Position numbers and translations under genes: made by a program | Shown: one piece after another, positions 13,212-22,536 of the stretch | Layout of the letters: each line of letters begins with the position of its first letter | How positions within the stretch are numbered: position 1 is the first letter of the stretch | Source: Anaerolineae bacterium | GTDB lineage: Bacteria; Chloroflexota; Anaerolineae; Aggregatilineales; Phototrophicaceae | Direction: 5' to 3' | Length of the DNA stretch: 49,307 nucleotides | Assembly (NCBI GenBank): GCA_026645945.1 | Contig: JAPKMO010000021.1 | Location: 1-49,307 of the forward strand | The notes under the pieces: model-generated | What the model saw: only the letters and a program-made list of their open reading frames with translations | Database searches by the model: none | Told to the model about the DNA's origin: nothing

Positions 13212-13694
13212 GTGGACGAACGTTTGACACACCTGGACGAAAGCGGCGCGGCGCGTCTGGTAGATGTAGGCGCGAAGCCGGATACCGAACGTGTTGCAGT
13301 GGCGGCGGGGTCGGTCTACATGCAGCCAGAAACGCTGCGGTTGATTCGAGAGGGCGCGCTGAAAAAGGGCGATGTCATCATGGTGGCGCGGCTGGCAGGC
13401 ATCATGGCGGCCAAAAAAACCGCCGACCTGATCCCTTTGTGTCACCCGTTGACTCTGACTCATATTGATGTCGAACTGGCGCTGGACGCCGAAAAAAGCG
13501 CCGTACAGATCACGGCGACGGCGCGCACGGTGGGCAAGACGGGTGTTGAGATGGAGGCCCTCACTGCCGTAACGGTTGCCGCGCTGACGGTTTATGATAT
13601 GGCGAAAGCCGTTGATCGGGGAATGCGCCTGAGCGAAATACGGCTGCTGGAAAAACGCGGCGGCCAGCGGGGCGATTATACAGCGGAGGCCTGA
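13212..13694 (+). CDS. moaC: Cyclic pyranopterin monophosphate synthase
   Basis: MoaC converts the MoaA product 3',8-cyclo-7,8-dihydro-GTP to cyclic pyranopterin monophosphate in molybdenum cofactor synthesis. The 160-residue length matches the family. Catalytic-site segments are intact: [10 protein letters not shown] with the active-site His, GVEMEALT with the conserved glutamates, and YDMAKAVD with the conserved Asp and Lys. The start is the GTG at 13212, with AGGGA 8 nt upstream; the GTG at 13197 is less likely. The gene overlaps the MoaD-MoaE gene by one base (TGATG), so the two are translationally coupled. moaA is not in the window. Confidence 0.95.
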
Positions 13695-14401
13695 TGCGCG
13701 TTGAAGTTCTGTTGTTCGCAACTTTGAAAGATGCAGCCGGCCAGAACCGGCTGTCCGTGACACTGCCGGATGGCGCGACGGTTGGGGATGTCAAACGCGC
13801 TGTGATGGCGCTGTACCCGGTTATAGAGGCGCACATTGAGGCAGCGATTGCGGCGGTTAACCAGGAGTACGCTTTCGCCTCGGATGCGGTTCATGATGGC
13901 GACGAAGTGGCTTTTTTCCCGCCGGTCAGCGGCGGCAGCTACCCGGAAATTCTGCGCCTGGCAGATGAACCTTTCAGCGCCGATGAATTGATCGCCGCCA
14001 TCACCATCCCGGCGACGGGCGCGGTTTGCGTTTTCAGCGGCATGGTGCGGGGCGAAACGGCACGGGCGGGCGAGCAGCTTCAGACCGAACACCTGGAGTA
14101 TGAAGCCTACGAGCCGATGGCGCTGGCGAAGATGCGCCAGGTTGCGGCGGAAATTCGTGAACGCTGGCCGCTGGTGCAGGGCATCGCCATCGTGCAGCGG
14201 GTGGGCCGGCTGGAAGTCGGGCAAAACACGATCCTGATCGCTTGTTCATCCGGCCACCGCGATCAGGGCTGCTTTGAGGCGGCGCGCTATGGCATTGACC
14301 GATTGAAAGAGATTGTGCCGGTGTGGAAAAAAGAGGTGCGCCCGGATGGCGCGGCCTGGGTGGAAGGAGTTTATCACCCCACGCCGCGAGACCGCCGCTG
14401 A
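13694..14401 (+). CDS. Fused molybdopterin synthase (MoaD-MoaE)
   Basis: Molybdopterin synthase inserts the two dithiolene sulfurs into cyclic pyranopterin monophosphate. It normally consists of a small ubiquitin-like subunit (MoaD) and a large one (MoaE). Here both lie in one 235-residue chain. Residues 1-81 are a MoaD domain ending in PPVSGG (Gly80-Gly81). Residues 82-235 are MoaE, with the active-site lysine segment VWKKEVRPDG. In free MoaD the Gly-Gly must be the C-terminus to carry a thiocarboxylate, so this chain presumably has to be cut after Gly81. Such processing is established for the mycobacterial MoaX fusion. It is coupled to moaC. Confidence 0.92.
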   Translation: MRVEVLLFATLKDAAGQNRLSVTLPDGATVGDVKRAVMALYPVIEAHIEAAIAAVNQEYAFASDAVHDGDEVAFFPPVSGGSYPEILRLADEPFSADELIAAITIPATGAVCVFSGMVRGETARAGEQLQTEHLEYEAYEPMALAKMRQVAAEIRERWPLVQGIAIVQRVGRLEVGQNTILIACSSGHRDQGCFEAARYGIDRLKEIVPVWKKEVRPDGAAWVEGVYHPTPRDRR

Positions 14402-16488: not shown

Positions 16489-16513
16489 GGGGCGGGTAGG
16501 TTTTATCCGCCCC
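16489..16513. terminator. Hairpin between convergent rnc and membrane EEP gene
   Basis: A 7-bp GC stem (GGGGCGG / CCGCCCC) with an 11-nt loop overlaps the stop of the minus-strand gene and lies just past the rnc stop. No T tract is seen, so it is a possible bidirectional stop. Confidence 0.4.
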
Positions 16514-18593
16514 GGCTGATCTGCACCTCGATGACCGCCATACGATGATCGGACGCGCTGCTGTCCATCACCACCGCGCCCAGTGCCAGCATCGAACGCA
16601 CCCACAGATAATCCAGACGCACGCGCGGCAGCCCGGTGCGCCACAGTGTTGCCGTCAGTTCCTGCGGCAGCCCGGCGAACGGGTCGCTAAAGCCGGCGGC
16701 GCGCATCTGGCCGATCAGCGGCGAATCGGCCACGTTGTTAAATGTGCCGCCGATAATCATGCGTCCCAGGTTGCCGTCCGGGTGCTGCGCGCTGATGATA
16801 GCGAAGGCTTCGTTTAACTGGCGCTGCTGGTCTTGCTCCTGCTGCTCGATGCTGCGGCCATCGCCGGTTTCCAGCAAAAACGCCAGCCAGGTGTTGTACA
16901 GGGTAATCACGCCGGCGTCGGGGCGAATCTGCGCCCGCTGAAGCCCGGTTTGCGGGCTGCCGGTGCTGGTCAGCAGCGCGCCGTCATCGTAGACGATTTC
17001 GACGTTCGAGAGGATGGCGAGTCCCTGCAAGCCTTCGTTGGTGGGGAAAAAGCGCGCCGGCATCAGCAGCCGCCGCGCCAGCCATAACGGTTGATCCACG
17101 CCGAAACTGGTCAGCCGCCCGGCTTCTACCTGCTGAAGCAGGACGGCGTTCGCGCCGCTTTGCTGGATCGTGCGAGCAATGGCTTCGAGGTCGAAATGAT
17201 AAAACTCGTTAAAGCCGCCGTGTATGTTGTACGTGCCGACACGAATGCTGCTTAGGGGGCTTTGCGGGGTGTCGCGCACGGCTGCAATGGCCGGCGGTCG
17301 CACCATGTAGGCGATGCCCCCGGCGAAGCCAGCCACCACCAGCAGCGCCAGCAGGGATTGAAGCGGCGAGCCGCCTTCCCAGGGGATGCGGCGCGGCGTC
17401 TGCGCCATCGGCAGGGCGGCGAAAAAGACGCCCAGCAGCAGCAGTCCCAGCCCCATGCCTCGAAAACCGCGCAAAAACGGCGGGATGATGTCGTTCAGGA
17501 AGGCCAGTTCCGGCGCGAGGCTGCGGACGTAGGCATATTCGTAGGTGAAGTTATCGCCGGCCACCAGCAGGAAAAACATCACCATGCCCACGATAATCCA
17601 CAAGCCGCCGAAGCTGCGCTCTTTTTCGGCCTGAGGGCGTGCCAGCCACCACCACATCATACCGGCGGTGAAGGCAGCGATGACCAGCGCCGCGCCGGCG
17701 ACCAATCCCTGAAAGCGCGTCCCGACCATCACCAGCAGCGCCGTGAACAGCATCCACAGCCAGCCGCGCACGCCGCCGTCAAAAGTGGCGATGAAGTTCC
17801 GCGCCTGCCGGCGCACCCAGGGGATAAGCGGCAAAAGCGTCCCCAGCGCCACGAAGGGCGCAAACGAGGTATAGTCCACATCCGCGCGCCCGGCGATGGC
17901 ATTGGGCAGGCTGAGGAGTGACAGCTCCAGGAATAACAACCCGCCGAAGCCGATGCCGCCCCAGAAGGGCATCAGTCCGCGATCAGGTGAAACGGCGGTT
18001 TCGTCGCGCCGGGATATTCGCCGCTGGCCGAGAACGCTGAGGACACTGAACGCAGCGGCCAGCAGTGACAGTACGAGCTGAATTTGAAGGTAGCGCGGCG
18101 ACCAGGACGGGTCGAGCGTGTTGCCCAGTGCGCGAAAAACCTGGTCAATCCCCAGTGCGAGGACGAACATATAGGGCAGGATAGATGCCCGGTGACGAAC
18201 GAGCATGGCCGTATAAAACAGCCCGCCCCCGACGGCCAGCGCCGCGCCCATCGTCGGCGTAAACGGCAGGTCGGTCAGCATCAGCACGCGCCCCGCCGCC
18301 GTCAGCGCCGCCGCCAGGATGAACAAACCGCGCGCGCGTCCGAACAGCGCGGCCAGCAGGGGCAGGGCGAGCATGTAAACCAGGAACGAAATTTCGCCGG
18401 TGACAACTGCCGGGTCAACAACGCCAGGCGTGCCGGGGGGCAGCGCCGCCGGGTCGAGGACGGTGACAACCGAGAGGCTGCCGATGCGGCTGTAAACCAT
18501 GCCGATCAAAAATCGAAGCGCCTGGACGAAAAAAACGCCGATTAAGACGGCTTCGAGGAAATAGACATATTGCAGGCGTAAGCGGTTGCGCAT
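16503..18593 (-). CDS. Polytopic membrane protein with C-terminal endonuclease/exonuclease/phosphatase domain
   Basis: The first roughly 430 of 696 residues are a series of about a dozen hydrophobic helices. After them comes an endonuclease/exonuclease/phosphatase-fold domain (about 455-696). It begins IRVGTYNIHGGF (conserved Asn) and ends with ASDHRMAVIEV, the terminal Asp-His pair. The VLLQQVE strand holds a Glu-like metal ligand position. Such fusions are seen as uncharacterised membrane proteins in Chloroflexota; the domain could act on a phosphodiester, a lipid or a nucleic acid outside the membrane. The start is the ATG at 18593, with GGGAG about 6 nt upstream; an in-frame start at 18626 is less likely. 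It is divergent from the amidohydrolase gene. Confidence 0.8.
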   Translation of the reverse strand: MRNRLRLQYVYFLEAVLIGVFFVQALRFLIGMVYSRIGSLSVVTVLDPAALPPGTPGVVDPAVVTGEISFLVYMLALPLLAALFGRARGLFILAAALTAAGRVLMLTDLPFTPTMGAALAVGGGLFYTAMLVRHRASILPYMFVLALGIDQVFRALGNTLDPSWSPRYLQIQLVLSLLAAAFSVLSVLGQRRISRRDETAVSPDRGLMPFWGGIGFGGLLFLELSLLSLPNAIAGRADVDYTSFAPFVALGTLLPLIPWVRRQARNFIATFDGGVRGWLWMLFTALLVMVGTRFQGLVAGAALVIAAFTAGMMWWWLARPQAEKERSFGGLWIIVGMVMFFLLVAGDNFTYEYAYVRSLAPELAFLNDIIPPFLRGFRGMGLGLLLLGVFFAALPMAQTPRRIPWEGGSPLQSLLALLVVAGFAGGIAYMVRPPAIAAVRDTPQSPLSSIRVGTYNIHGGFNEFYHFDLEAIARTIQQSGANAVLLQQVEAGRLTSFGVDQPLWLARRLLMPARFFPTNEGLQGLAILSNVEIVYDDGALLTSTGSPQTGLQRAQIRPDAGVITLYNTWLAFLLETGDGRSIEQQEQDQQRQLNEAFAIISAQHPDGNLGRMIIGGTFNNVADSPLIGQMRAAGFSDPFAGLPQELTATLWRTGLPRVRLDYLWVRSMLALGAVVMDSSASDHRMAVIEVQISRGG

Positions 18594-18619
18594 AACAACT
18601 CCCGCGTGGGATGGGTCTA

Positions 18620-18647
18620 TGGACAAAGTTTACAACAGGGTTATAAT
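18620..18647 (+). promoter_or_regulatory. Promoter of the amidohydrolase-CYTH gene
   Basis: TGGACA (18620-18625), a 16-bp spacer and a perfect TATAAT (18642-18647) lie about 40 bp before the GTG start. Confidence 0.7.
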
Positions 18648-18688
18648 CCCGCCAATTTTACCTAGTTTACGTTTACGAGGAGGCGAGC

Positions 18689-20668
18689 GTGGAACGGGTG
18701 GAGATTATTCTGGCCGGCGGCACGGTTGTCGCTATGAACGATGGGTTTGACGTGATACCGGACGGCGCGGTAGCAATCCGCGATACTAAAATCGTCGCCG
18801 TCGGCACGCGCGCAGAAGTCGCCGCCGCCTATGAGGCGGATACGGTGGTGGACTGTGCCGGCCAATACATCATGCCGGGGCTGGTGAACGCACATACCCA
18901 TGTGCCGATGACCTTGCTGCGCGGGCTGGCCGATGACCTGCGCCTGGATGTGTGGTTGATGGGGTATATGATGCCCACCGAGCGGGAGTTCGTCAACCCG
19001 GAGTTCTGCCGGGTGGGGACAGGGCTGGCCTGCGCGGAGATGATCCGCAGCGGAATTACCTGTTTTGCCGATATGTATTATTACGAAGCGGAGGTGGCGG
19101 CGGCGACGGCGGAAGCCGGGTTGCGCGGCGTGCTGGGGCAGACGATCCTCAAGTTCCCTTCGCCCGATGCCGAGACATATGAATTCAGCCTGGATTATGC
19201 AGCGCAGTTCATCGAAAAGTGGCGCGGCCACCCCTTGATTACCCCGGCGGTTGCGCCGCACGCGCCCTATTCCACGACCGATGATATTCTACGGGAGTGC
19301 GCTCAACTGGCGAAAGCCTATGATGTGCCGATTCTCATTCATATCGCCGAAACGAAGCTGGAAGTGGAAGATAATGTCGAACTGCATGGCATGACAGTCG
19401 TTCCCTGGGTGCAGTCGGTGGGGCTGCTGGACGCGAAAGTGCTGGCGGCACACTGTGTTCATATCAACGGCGGTGAGATGCGAATTTTGCACGATCACCA
19501 TACCACCATTGCCCACTGCCCAACCAGCAACCTTAAACTGGCCGCCGGAATCGCACCGGTGGCGCAGATGCTTGAGCATGATTTAACCGTCGGCATTGGC
19601 ACGGACGGCACGGCCAGCAACAACGATCTGGATATGTTTGAGGAAGTGCGCCTGGCGGCCATCCTGGCAAAAACTGCCGCCAACGACCCAACGGCGCTGC
19701 CGGCGCGACAGGCGCTGTTGATGGCGACCCGCATGGGGGCGGAAGCCCTGTTTATGGGCGATGTCACCGGCAGCCTGGAGGTGGGCAAGCTGGCCGACGT
19801 GATTACGGTGGAGGCAAACCCGGTTCATAATGTGCCGCAGTTCAGCCGCGACCCAAACGCGGTTTATTCGCGGATCGTTTATGCAGGAAAAAGCGGCGAC
19901 GTGCGCCACGTAATCTGTAATGGGCGCTGGCTGATGCGCGACCGCCAACTGCTGACGATAGACGAAAAGACGCTGCTCGAACAGGCGGAGGCTTACGCCG
20001 TGAAAATTGACCGTTTTCTCGCGGCGCGGGAGGAGGACATCCTCAGCAAGCTGCTGGCGATTGGCGGGTTGGAGCAGAGCGAAAGTTTTGAAGTGCAGGT
20101 GAAAGCCAGCATCCCGGATGGCGAAGTCGTGCAAAAGCTGCTGAATCATCCCAACGTGCAGGTGTTGGCGCAGCATCACTACCGGCAGTACGACACTTAT
20201 TTTTTGTTCCAGGACGATGCCAAAGGGCGCGTGCGCTACCGGGAAGATGACCGGATAGACGAACGCGGTGAGGTTGTTTCGGTACGCACCCGCCTGACGT
20301 ACACCCTGCCGACCAAAGAACGCGAGTTTAGCCAGGCGATTTTGCTGTCGCATTCGCGGTTTATTGCCGAGGCGGACAGGCCGCTGCGGTTCTTCCGCGA
20401 ATATTTCCAGCCGGAGACCGAACGCGAGCTTCAGAAAGATCGGCGGCGCTGGCACATTCACTATCAGGGCGTGCTGTTTTACGTCAATGTTGACCGCATA
20501 TTGTCGCCCGCGCTGCCGCAGATTTTTATCGAACTGAAAAGCCGCACCTGGTCAAAATCGGATGCGGAAAATAAAGCCGACCGGATTCAGGAAATGTTGG
20601 GCATACTGGGCGTCGCACAGGCCGACATCATCCGTGAAGAGTACCTGGAGATGCAGGCGTCGCCTTAA
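18689..20668 (+). CDS. MTA/SAH-deaminase-like amidohydrolase fused to a CYTH domain
   Basis: Residues 1-445 are an amidohydrolase of the 5-methylthioadenosine / S-adenosylhomocysteine deaminase type. The metal site has His69 and His71 (NAHTH), His218 with Glu221 (HIAET) and Asp306 (GTDGTASNND); HAPYS and AHCPTSN are also typical. Family members usually end near residue 440. The added 200 residues (about 465-655) look like a CYTH domain, the triphosphate tunnel fold of class IV adenylyl cyclases and thiamine triphosphatases. They contain FEVQVKA in place of ExExK, QYDTYF, RVRYRED, basic KDRRRWHIHY and IFIELKSRTW. The start is a GTG with GAGGAGG 5 nt upstream. The substrate is not proven; other purine or guanidine deaminases share these motifs. 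Confidence 0.88.
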   Translation: MERVEIILAGGTVVAMNDGFDVIPDGAVAIRDTKIVAVGTRAEVAAAYEADTVVDCAGQYIMPGLVNAHTHVPMTLLRGLADDLRLDVWLMGYMMPTEREFVNPEFCRVGTGLACAEMIRSGITCFADMYYYEAEVAAATAEAGLRGVLGQTILKFPSPDAETYEFSLDYAAQFIEKWRGHPLITPAVAPHAPYSTTDDILRECAQLAKAYDVPILIHIAETKLEVEDNVELHGMTVVPWVQSVGLLDAKVLAAHCVHINGGEMRILHDHHTTIAHCPTSNLKLAAGIAPVAQMLEHDLTVGIGTDGTASNNDLDMFEEVRLAAILAKTAANDPTALPARQALLMATRMGAEALFMGDVTGSLEVGKLADVITVEANPVHNVPQFSRDPNAVYSRIVYAGKSGDVRHVICNGRWLMRDRQLLTIDEKTLLEQAEAYAVKIDRFLAAREEDILSKLLAIGGLEQSESFEVQVKASIPDGEVVQKLLNHPNVQVLAQHHYRQYDTYFLFQDDAKGRVRYREDDRIDERGEVVSVRTRLTYTLPTKEREFSQAILLSHSRFIAEADRPLRFFREYFQPETERELQKDRRRWHIHYQGVLFYVNVDRILSPALPQIFIELKSRTWSKSDAENKADRIQEMLGILGVAQADIIREEYLEMQASP

Positions 20669-20766: not shown

Positions 20767-22536
20767 ATGGCAGCGGCGGAAATCGAATATCCGCAGGCGA
20801 ACATGCGGTGGCTGCTGGGGTACATCCTGGGGCATCGCGGCGCGGCGCTGGGGGCGCTGCTGTCCGGCATGGTGGCGGGCGTCAGCTCGGCGGCAGCGCC
20901 GTATCTGATGGGCGTGATTGTGGATCATATCCGTCAGCAGGCGCCGATTGAACAGATCGGCAGGGACGCGCTGACGCTGATTGGGCTGTCTGCCGTGACG
21001 GTGACGGCTTTTTTCGGCCAGCGGTACTTCAGCGGCCAGGTGGCCTATGCGGTTAACTTCGACATCCGGCGCGCTCTGTTCGATAACCTGCTGACGCTCG
21101 ACCAGGATTTTTACCAGCACTACCCGACCGGCGATCTGATTTCCCGAATGCACGCCGATACCGAGATGATCTGGCGTTTGCTGGCAATCGGGTTTACGCG
21201 CTTCGGCAGCGCGGCCTTCACCGTGATCGCCGCCTTCGTGCTGCTGGGGACGATCAACCTGCCGCTGACCGTGTTGGTATTTATCGTCCTGAGCATTTCG
21301 ACGACTCTACAACTTCGTGCCGGGCGGGTGCTGGCGCCGGTTTTTGAGACGGTTCAGGCGCAGGCGGGTACGCTGGCGGCGCTGGTGCAGGATTCGGCCA
21401 GCGGTATCCAGACGATCAAAACCTTTGGCAAAGAAGCCGGCGCGGCGGCCAAATATCGGGAAGAAAACCTGGAATACCGCCGGCGCTGGTTATATTTCCG
21501 CCGGCGCAACGAGCCGGTGGGGATGCTGCCGAATATGATTAGCGAATTGACCGCCGCCGGGGTGGTGCTGATCGGCGGGGTGATGGCGCTGAACGGGATG
21601 CTGACGCTTGGTAATTTCGTGCAATTTCTGATTTACCTGTCGGTGATTGGGACGGTGCTGCTGCAGCTTGGCACGATTTACCAGCGTTACCAGCAGACGC
21701 GCGGCGCGTTGTTCCGGCTGACGCCGCTGCTCCAGCCGCCGCAGATTCACAGCAGCAATGACGCTGTAAGGCTTTCCGCGCCGCGCGGCGAAATCACCTT
21801 CGAGAATGTGGGACTCAAAACCGGTGATACCTGGCTGCTGCGGAATGTGTCGCTGCGTATCCCCGCCGGGGCAGTAGTGGCAGTGGTCGGCCCGACCGGC
21901 TGCGGTAAAACGCTGCTGGTGAACCTGCTGGCGCGCGTGTTCGACCCCAGCGAGGGGCGCGTGCTGGTTGACGGCGTGGATGTGCGGGCGCTGGCGCTGG
22001 ATGACCTGCGCCGGGCGATTGTTTACGTGCCGCAGTCCACGTTTTTGTTCAGCCAGCCGCTGCATCAGAACGTCCGCATGGGCATGAATAACATCCGCGA
22101 CGAGGATTTTAACCAGGCCATTCATATCTCGCGGGTGAGCAATGACCTGCCACAACTTCCGCAAGGGTTGGATACACTGGTGGGCGAAAAAGGCGTCATG
22201 CTCTCCGGCGGGCAAAAACAGCGCGTTGCCATCGCACGGGCAATCGTGCGCGACCCGGCTGTCCTGGTGCTGGACGATGCGCTGTCCAGCGTGGATACAC
22301 AGACCGCCGCCGACATCCTGGGCGATCTGCGCGGCGTTCTTCGTTCTCGCACCAGCTTAATCATCGCCCATCGTATTGCTACTGTTAAGGATGCCGATTT
22401 GATCGTGGTGATGTCCGACGGGCGGATTGTGGAGCAGGGCGCGCACGCCGAGCTGATTGAACGGGATGGCCTGTACGCGCATATGGTCGAGCGCGAGCTG
22501 CGAGAAGACAGGGAAAGCGCCGATGCCGAAGGATAA
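20767..22536 (+). CDS. ABC exporter half-transporter, degenerate-site subunit
   Basis: This 589-residue protein has an N-terminal six-helix transmembrane domain (about 10-320) and a C-terminal nucleotide-binding domain. The Walker A is GPTGCGKTLL, the signature is the canonical LSGGQKQR, and the Walker B ends in VLVLDDALSSVD. The normal catalytic Glu after Walker B is Asp, which marks the degenerate-site partner in heterodimeric exporters of the TM287/288 and BmrCD type. Its start (ATG, preceded by GGGGG) is clear and its end overlaps the next gene by 14 bp. The pair probably exports lipids, drugs or another amphipathic compound; the substrate cannot be read. Confidence 0.9.
   Translation: MAAAEIEYPQANMRWLLGYILGHRGAALGALLSGMVAGVSSAAAPYLMGVIVDHIRQQAPIEQIGRDALTLIGLSAVTVTAFFGQRYFSGQVAYAVNFDIRRALFDNLLTLDQDFYQHYPTGDLISRMHADTEMIWRLLAIGFTRFGSAAFTVIAAFVLLGTINLPLTVLVFIVLSISTTLQLRAGRVLAPVFETVQAQAGTLAALVQDSASGIQTIKTFGKEAGAAAKYREENLEYRRRWLYFRRRNEPVGMLPNMISELTAAGVVLIGGVMALNGMLTLGNFVQFLIYLSVIGTVLLQLGTIYQRYQQTRGALFRLTPLLQPPQIHSSNDAVRLSAPRGEITFENVGLKTGDTWLLRNVSLRIPAGAVVAVVGPTGCGKTLLVNLLARVFDPSEGRVLVDGVDVRALALDDLRRAIVYVPQSTFLFSQPLHQNVRMGMNNIRDEDFNQAIHISRVSNDLPQLPQGLDTLVGEKGVMLSGGQKQRVAIARAIVRDPAVLVLDDALSSVDTQTAADILGDLRGVLRSRTSLIIAHRIATVKDADLIVVMSDGRIVEQGAHAELIERDGLYAHMVERELREDRESADAEG

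Follow-up and report, generated by a model that had tools for sequence, protein, structure and literature searches.

Fusion of a probable 5'-substituted-adenosine deaminase with a predicted CYTH/TTM tunnel of altered motifs in Chloroflexota

The window analysed here is a 49,307-nucleotide stretch of DNA from an Anaerolineae bacterium (contig JAPKMO010000021.1, positions 1 to 49,307 of the forward strand). Positions 18689-20668 (+) hold a gene with a GTG start that consists of one uninterrupted open frame of 659 codons plus stop, as a preliminary description of the sequence had stated. A Shine-Dalgarno-like GAGGAGG, recognized by eye, lies 5 nt 5' of the GTG (18677-18683, +), and a sigma-70-like promoter, TGGACA-16-TATAAT, with 11 of 12 consensus matches is located at 18620-18647 (+). 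Five such sites were found in the scanned region against a mean of 1.1 in shuffled sequence, each being a consensus match and not proof of a promoter. The encoded protein is made up of an amidohydrolase of the Trz/Atz, MTA/adenosine deaminase type (residues 1-440; 18689-20008, +; delimited by Pfam, PDB comparison and an alignment of 93 fusion sequences), an interdomain segment whose length is nearly fixed in that alignment (residues 441-462; 20009-20074, +), and a domain with a predicted CYTH/TTM fold (residues 463-659; 20075-20665, +; Pfam, AlphaFold and Foldseek).

Upstream of the fused gene and divergent from it lies a gene of the endonuclease/exonuclease/phosphatase family (16503-18626, -; Pfam). 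Its product of 707 aa carries the Exo_endo_phos domain at residues 464-694, and its N-terminal 460 residues have no Pfam match over the cut-off. An ABC transporter gene starts at 20767, 98 bases downstream of the fused gene. Elsewhere in the window, 13694-14398 (+) encodes a fused molybdopterin synthase, with MoaD/ThiS (PF02597, residues 5-81) followed by MoaE (PF02391, residues 90-206). The gene neighbourhood was surveyed in those 66 of the 93 aligned loci that span at least 5 kb; since many of these are cut, the numbers obtained are minimum values. At least 27 of the 66 loci retain the divergent Exo_endo_phos gene, at least 22 RNase III and at least 19 FabF. Across the 66 loci, neighbours are kept only within lineages, and the conserved gene order gave no operon logic and no functional support. 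At six loci outside the window's class (L148, L152, L157, L158, L161 and L164), the same-strand downstream gene looks, by eye, like a dephospho-CoA kinase.

The N-terminal domain is a complete amidohydrolase, as had been proposed. Residues 60-414 match Amidohydro_1 (PF01979) with an E-value of 2.8e-73 and 247.6 bits against a cut-off of 25, and the HxH, H, (E), H and D active site of the family is present. The four residues named in the preliminary description (H69, H71, H218 and D306) stand at the positions given there; E221 and H255 can be added, and all six are invariant in the 93 aligned fusion sequences. The metal-binding and catalytic residues are the same as in the five best PDB chains. 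In the AlphaFold model of the whole chain (pLDDT 92.2, pTM 0.86) the best structural neighbours according to Foldseek are adenosine and MTA deaminases, for example 3lnp, 4f0r and 4gbd. The likeness to deaminases of the Trz/Atz group (4f0r, 4gbd, 3lnp and TM0936, 1p1m) extends over the whole N-terminal domain, with target-normalized TM-scores of 0.93-0.97 and identities of 32-42%; unlike the fusion, these chains comprise 404-441 residues and have no tunnel domain.

The narrower label of MTA/SAH deaminase is plausible, and the profile scores fall short of confirming it: the NCBIfam models for MTA/SAH deaminase (NF012037) and 5'-deoxyadenosine deaminase (NF005557) score 303.3 bits against an equivalog cut-off of 779 and 358.1 bits against one of 522, respectively, and no equivalog cut-off was reached among the 25 best models shown. 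Because the metal-binding and catalytic residues match those of the PDB chains and are invariant, the domain is predicted to act on a 5'-substituted adenosine. From its sequence, it is probably a metal-dependent deaminase of such compounds, be it MTA, 5'-deoxyadenosine, SAH or adenosine.

The C-terminal part had been described as a CYTH domain, and this assignment holds, being weak by sequence (E 2.1e-4) and clear by predicted fold. The motifs on which it was based are in place: FEVQVKA at residues 467-473, QYDTYF at 500-505, RVRYRED at 514-520 and IFIELKSRTW at 612-621. A profile search does return CYTH (PF01928) for residues 468-644 of the window's protein, at 21.6 bits and thus just under the Pfam gathering cut-off of 23.2; across scans the score ranged from 20.7 to 22.5 bits. 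Scanned singly, 61 of the 93 homologous C-terminal domains reach E<=0.1 against PF01928, the lowest value being 1.9e-8, and several fused orthologues pass the cut-off in a whole-genome search, such as that of genome G013 with 32.4 bits. Sequence searches of the PDB with the C-terminal domain alone yielded no CYTH chain; these came only from the fold search. The AlphaFold model of the domain, built from the 93-sequence alignment (pLDDT 94.0, pTM 0.89), has strands and helices ordered as in TTM proteins and, together with the Foldseek matches, points to an eight-stranded tunnel with a C-terminal plug helix. Its first Foldseek match is SaTTM (7nsf; E 2.4e-8, 15% identity, TM-score 0.58 by query and 0.67 by target), and the next nine include PH1819, class IV cyclases, kinase-TTM1 and mouse ThTPase. 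The prediction thus clearly points to a CYTH/TTM fold.

In order to establish how widely the two domains occur together, we searched the genome of origin and 60 relatives as well as an even sample of 400 Chloroflexota genomes. Among the 61 genomes, 53 contain the fused gene with 578 or more residues of the query matched, and none of the 53 matches has an internal stop; two of the remaining genomes hold fragments (G009 and G060) and six only more distant amidohydrolases or nothing. In the larger sample the C-terminal domain was found in 89 of the 400 genomes, comprising 50 of the 55 from the window's class and 39 from other classes. A close amidohydrolase (E<=1e-100, a limit set by us) occurs in 88 genomes, all of them within the same 89. 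The five other genomes of the window's class have neither domain at these limits, and more distant amidohydrolases without a tunnel coexist in the same genomes as the fusion. Frames of at least 657 aa enclose 88 of the 90 C-terminal matches, and the other two lie at contig ends: G446 has just the C-terminal part, located where a contig of 4249 bases ends, and in G202 the halves are on two contigs with the C-terminal half at a contig end. Genome G363 carries the gene twice, as a fusion in both cases. Three matches (G368, G434 and G072) were scored with a single internal TAG each; for the two of them that were fetched (L163 and L164) the frame reaches query residue 655, and the TAG is the gene's own end, beyond which the search had continued. 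Within the 400-genome sample the orthologous pair of domains is therefore present or absent as one unit, together in 88 of 89 genomes.

The possibility that two separate genes were joined by a sequencing or gene-finding error, which the preliminary description had raised in the form of a missed stop, is negligible in view of these data. Many assemblies contribute to the 93 aligned sequences, all of which show the same fused frame, and the stretch that connects the domains (residues 425-467) measures 43 aa in 80 of them and 44 aa in the other 13. Such an error is refuted by the intact frames in 53 of 61 genomes together with the co-occurrence in the 400-genome sample. Distances between sequences, calculated for each domain, correlate over the 93 sequences with r = 0.77, the largest of 500 label shuffles giving 0.18, as joint descent would produce. 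The fusion is old and strictly kept, and is not an oddity of one contig.

In public contigs, the best 80 of 576 relatives are nearly all labelled Anaerolineae, Anaerolineales, Aggregatilineales, Ardenticatenia, Thermoflexus/Thermoflexia, Anaerolinea or Chloroflexi. Two contigs labelled as a cyanobacterium and as Pleurocapsa minor (L048 and L054) contain versions of the Chloroflexota fusion that are 69% and 66% identical, respectively, and are probably mislabelled bins. The C-terminal domain had no match in 72,556 plasmid records, and 80% coverage of the whole query was reached in none of the 1129 plasmid records with a match and in none of 15 phage records.

Enzymes of the TTM type hold two metals by the Glu residues of ExExK in strand 1 and of ExE in strand 8, the second Glu of ExE serving metal 2; in SaTTM the ions of the two-calcium form are held by PPPi, E5, E7 and E137, and in the Mg form metal 1 is bound with E7 and E135 (PMC8233210, in the portions used here). 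For ygiF, site 2 has been described as Glu4, Glu6 and Glu162 and may serve catalysis, and the site-1 Glu (Glu160 in ygiF, Glu169 in AtTTM3) was invariant in the TTMs characterised to that date (PMC4641920, in the excerpts available). The fused domain departs from this pattern at two positions. In all 93 aligned fusion sequences the strand-1 motif is ExQxK in place of ExExK (EVQVK, residues 468-472; 20090-20104, +), as had been noticed in the window's protein, and the strand-8 motif is ExK in place of ExE (ELK, residues 615-617; 20531-20539, +). Both Glu-bearing motifs are invariant in 28 of 28 stand-alone CYTH proteins from related genomes. These proteins were aligned with the fused domains by hhalign (probability 79.5%, E 1.5e-5) and MAFFT, which agree that E468 and Q470 correspond to the first and second Glu of ExExK, and E615 and K617 to the site-1 Glu and the second Glu of ExE.

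The basic side of the tunnel is largely maintained. MAFFT and the motif itself pair R516 and R518 of RYR (residues 516-518; 20234-20242, +; 93 of 93) with the phosphate-binding RxR of the stand-alone set, which hhalign leaves unaligned. K583, R585 and R587 of strand 6 (KDRRR, residues 583-587; 20435-20449, +) are each present in every sequence, in an ambiguous register in which hhalign pairs K583/R585, and MAFFT R587/H589, with K112/R114 of the stand-alone proteins. Altogether E468, Q470, K472, R516, R518, K583, R585, R587, D602, E615 and K617 are each found in 93 of 93 sequences. At residue 539, the counterpart of the strand-4 Lys (K70) of the stand-alone proteins, the fusions have T in 57, I in 17, L in 8, M in 6, V in 4 and S in 1 of the 93 sequences. 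MAFFT places the strand-5 Glu residues of the stand-alone proteins opposite R557 and I559, a register that is uncertain and differs in hhalign. The fused domain thus has the order of strands and C-terminal helix, RxR, the site-1 Glu and the strand-7 Asp in common with SaTTM, AtTTM3, ygiF and ThTPase, and differs from them by ExQxK, ExK, the lack of the strand-4 Lys and the deaminase in front. On these residue equivalences the tunnel keeps the putative metal-1 Glu and most of the predicted phosphate-binding basic residues, and two ligands of the catalytic metal-2 site are gone.

The preliminary description had suggested that ExQxK may change catalysis, and published mutants make such an effect likely. 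Substitutions equivalent to Q470, Glu-4 to Asp or Ala in AtTTM3 and Glu-6 to Ala in ygiF, left triphosphatase activity strongly reduced or impaired (PMC4641920, as far as excerpted). The mutations described in those excerpts are to Asp or Ala, whereas the natural changes here are to Gln and Lys.

Two activities known from the fold are contradicted by conserved residues. Class IV cyclases are marked by HFxxxxExExK, a small residue for the first Arg of RxR and Ala at the second position of strand 8 (PMC8233210, in the portions consulted). A cAMP-making role, which the preliminary description mentioned for CYTH domains in general, does not agree with these marks: HFxxxxExExK is missing, residues 462-463 being EQ, and R516 as the first Arg of RxR and K617 in the place of the cyclase Ala occur in 93 of 93 sequences. 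A thiamine triphosphatase role is contradicted by the absence of W/YxRxR; position 514 is R in 87 of the 93 sequences, Q in three, and I, W and V in one each.

Action as a canonical triphosphatase, the other role associated with CYTH domains, is likewise not supported, less firmly so. The strand-8 ExE of TTM/ThTPase enzymes is E615-x-K617, with Lys in the position of the metal-2 Glu, in all 93 sequences. PPPi is an intermediate of the SAM synthetase reaction, and an inorganic triphosphatase that tolerates Gln and Lys could clear it beside the deaminase, using the phosphate-binding residues, most of which are kept along with R516, the equivalent of Arg-52 in AtTTM3. We consider such an ordinary triphosphatase very unlikely. 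All 93 sequences have other residues in place of two Glu that surround the metals, and the changes equivalent to Q470 lower the activity of both AtTTM3 and ygiF in the work excerpted above. A stand-alone CYTH frame is moreover encoded in each of 41 genomes (the genome of origin and 40 relatives, that of G010 being partial); the 28 that were aligned retain both motifs, and PPPi could thus be hydrolysed without the fused domain. The stand-alone CYTH protein of the genome of origin (L174:4679-5275, -) scores 53.5 bits against the cyaB cyclase model (cut-off 57.95); it has a strand-8 Glu where cyclases have Ala and is therefore more likely a triphosphatase.

The main rival to a non-hydrolytic tunnel is a phosphotransferase or other active role, in which an altered, one-metal tunnel would work as a Vtc4p-like phosphotransferase or polyphosphate polymerase, or as a triphosphatase for an unusual substrate, and would make the protein a bifunctional enzyme. 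Vtc4p has metal site 1 only, and is nonetheless an active polymerase, and has four basic residues at the acidic patch of AtTTM3 (PMC4641920, in the excerpts available), where the fused domain has one Gln and one Lys. Both tunnels hence combine a site-1 Glu with the lack of an intact site 2 and a basic residue at one acidic-patch position. K629 in the C-terminal helix (residues 623-640) is also basic throughout (K in 88 and R in 5 of the 93 sequences), and the site-1 Glu and R516 are retained; the first Arg of RxR, Arg-52 in AtTTM3, has been proposed as a proton donor (PMC4641920, same excerpts). The fused tunnel differs from Vtc4p in that E468, the equivalent of the AtTTM3 Glu-2, is acidic in 93 of 93 sequences, and in that the 23 Pfam families to which one or more of the 93 domains show a match at E<=0.1 include no VTC model. 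Vtc4p is also absent from the 50 Foldseek matches shown of 65 at E<=0.001. We regard an active altered tunnel as rather unlikely, while giving it more weight than the other alternatives.

Mediator-complex chains, including Med18/20 entries, are among the Foldseek matches, so the fold occurs within protein assemblies, and the tunnel might be a structural scaffold for oligomerisation or partner binding that holds no small ligand. Of the 23 invariant columns of the domain, however, 17 are R, K, E, D, Q or N (five R, four E, three K, three D, one Q and one N) and include the residues of the tunnel motifs, a degree of conservation that one would hardly expect of a pure scaffold. We therefore deem this explanation improbable.

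According to our analysis, the fusion may best be read as a 5'-substituted-adenosine deaminase with a non-hydrolytic, regulatory triphosphate-binding tunnel, a reading to which we give a little less than an even chance. The fusion, its conservation, the fold and the substituted residues are computed; ligand binding, lost hydrolysis, allosteric coupling and the substrate are what we infer from them. The preliminary description's suggestion of a signalling or nucleotide-salvage link is possible, and we would frame it as sensing in place of hydrolysis. The tunnel would bind a (poly)phosphate ligand with one metal through Glu615, K472, R516, R518, K583 and R585. The changes of Glu to Gln470 and of Glu to Lys617 would remove two ligands of the second metal, the bound compound would most likely be left unhydrolysed, and the level of PPPi, ATP or another triphosphate would be reported to the deaminase via the connection of fixed length. 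Binding without hydrolysis is favoured since neither the site-1 Glu nor the basic side that would hold phosphate varies and two of the metal-2 ligands are gone. The activity of Vtc4p without site 2 counts against it, as does the retained R516, which fits an active enzyme and thus lowers our estimate for the non-hydrolytic tunnel and raises that for the active one.

A more specific proposal, that the tunnel is a sensor in which bound PPPi or ATP determines how fast MTA, 5'-deoxyadenosine or SAH is deaminated, seems possible and on balance doubtful. SAM yields MTA, SAH and 5'-deoxyadenosine, and a PPPi or ATP sensor on their deaminase would tie supply to salvage. On a connection between tripolyphosphate, adenosylmethionine and CYTH, the open-licence papers searched gave a single one, which deals with RNA triphosphatase inhibitors. 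The idea should be testable with purified protein, as cultured Chloroflexota presumably carry orthologues.

The deaminase is unlikely to be the sole outlet for SAH or MTA, given the other enzymes in these genomes. A protein of the SAH hydrolase family is encoded in 386 of the 400 genomes, among them the genome of origin and every fusion-bearing genome except G377 (88 of 89). MTA phosphorylase passes its family cut-off in 26 of 26 genomes (the genome of origin and 25 others); that of the genome of origin carries TDYDSW, which we take to be typical of the adenine-specific form. MTA/SAH nucleosidase reaches the cut-off in one of the 26. The widespread SAH hydrolase and MTA phosphorylase weaken the view of the deaminase as a replacement for missing SAH or MTA disposal. 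A fair candidate for its substrate is 5'-deoxyadenosine from radical-SAM enzymes. Pseudomonas aeruginosa has been described as having a deamination route for MTA, and a 5'-deoxyadenosine deaminase is on record for Methanocaldococcus (PMC6302742, in the part used here).

Both domains are of known kinds; what is new is their combination and the paired motif changes. We found no report of a CYTH-amidohydrolase or CYTH-methylthioadenosine-deaminase pairing in the open-licence papers searched, and domain databases may list the architecture. A TTM joined to another domain is also seen in CYTH-CHAD proteins (ygiF) and in kinase-TTM fusions (plant TTM1, 7z67), the partner there being CHAD or a kinase. 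For proteins like the one described here, cyclase or triphosphatase names taken from the domain name alone are unsafe. The fusion suggests that the level of triphosphate and the salvage of adenosine compounds are connected by regulation, and offers a concrete example of a TTM fold that may hold its ligand and leave it uncleaved. If the sensor proposal is true, a TTM pseudoenzyme would serve as an allosteric domain and would tie the triphosphate released during the synthesis of SAM and adenosylcobalamin to the fate of SAM-derived nucleosides.
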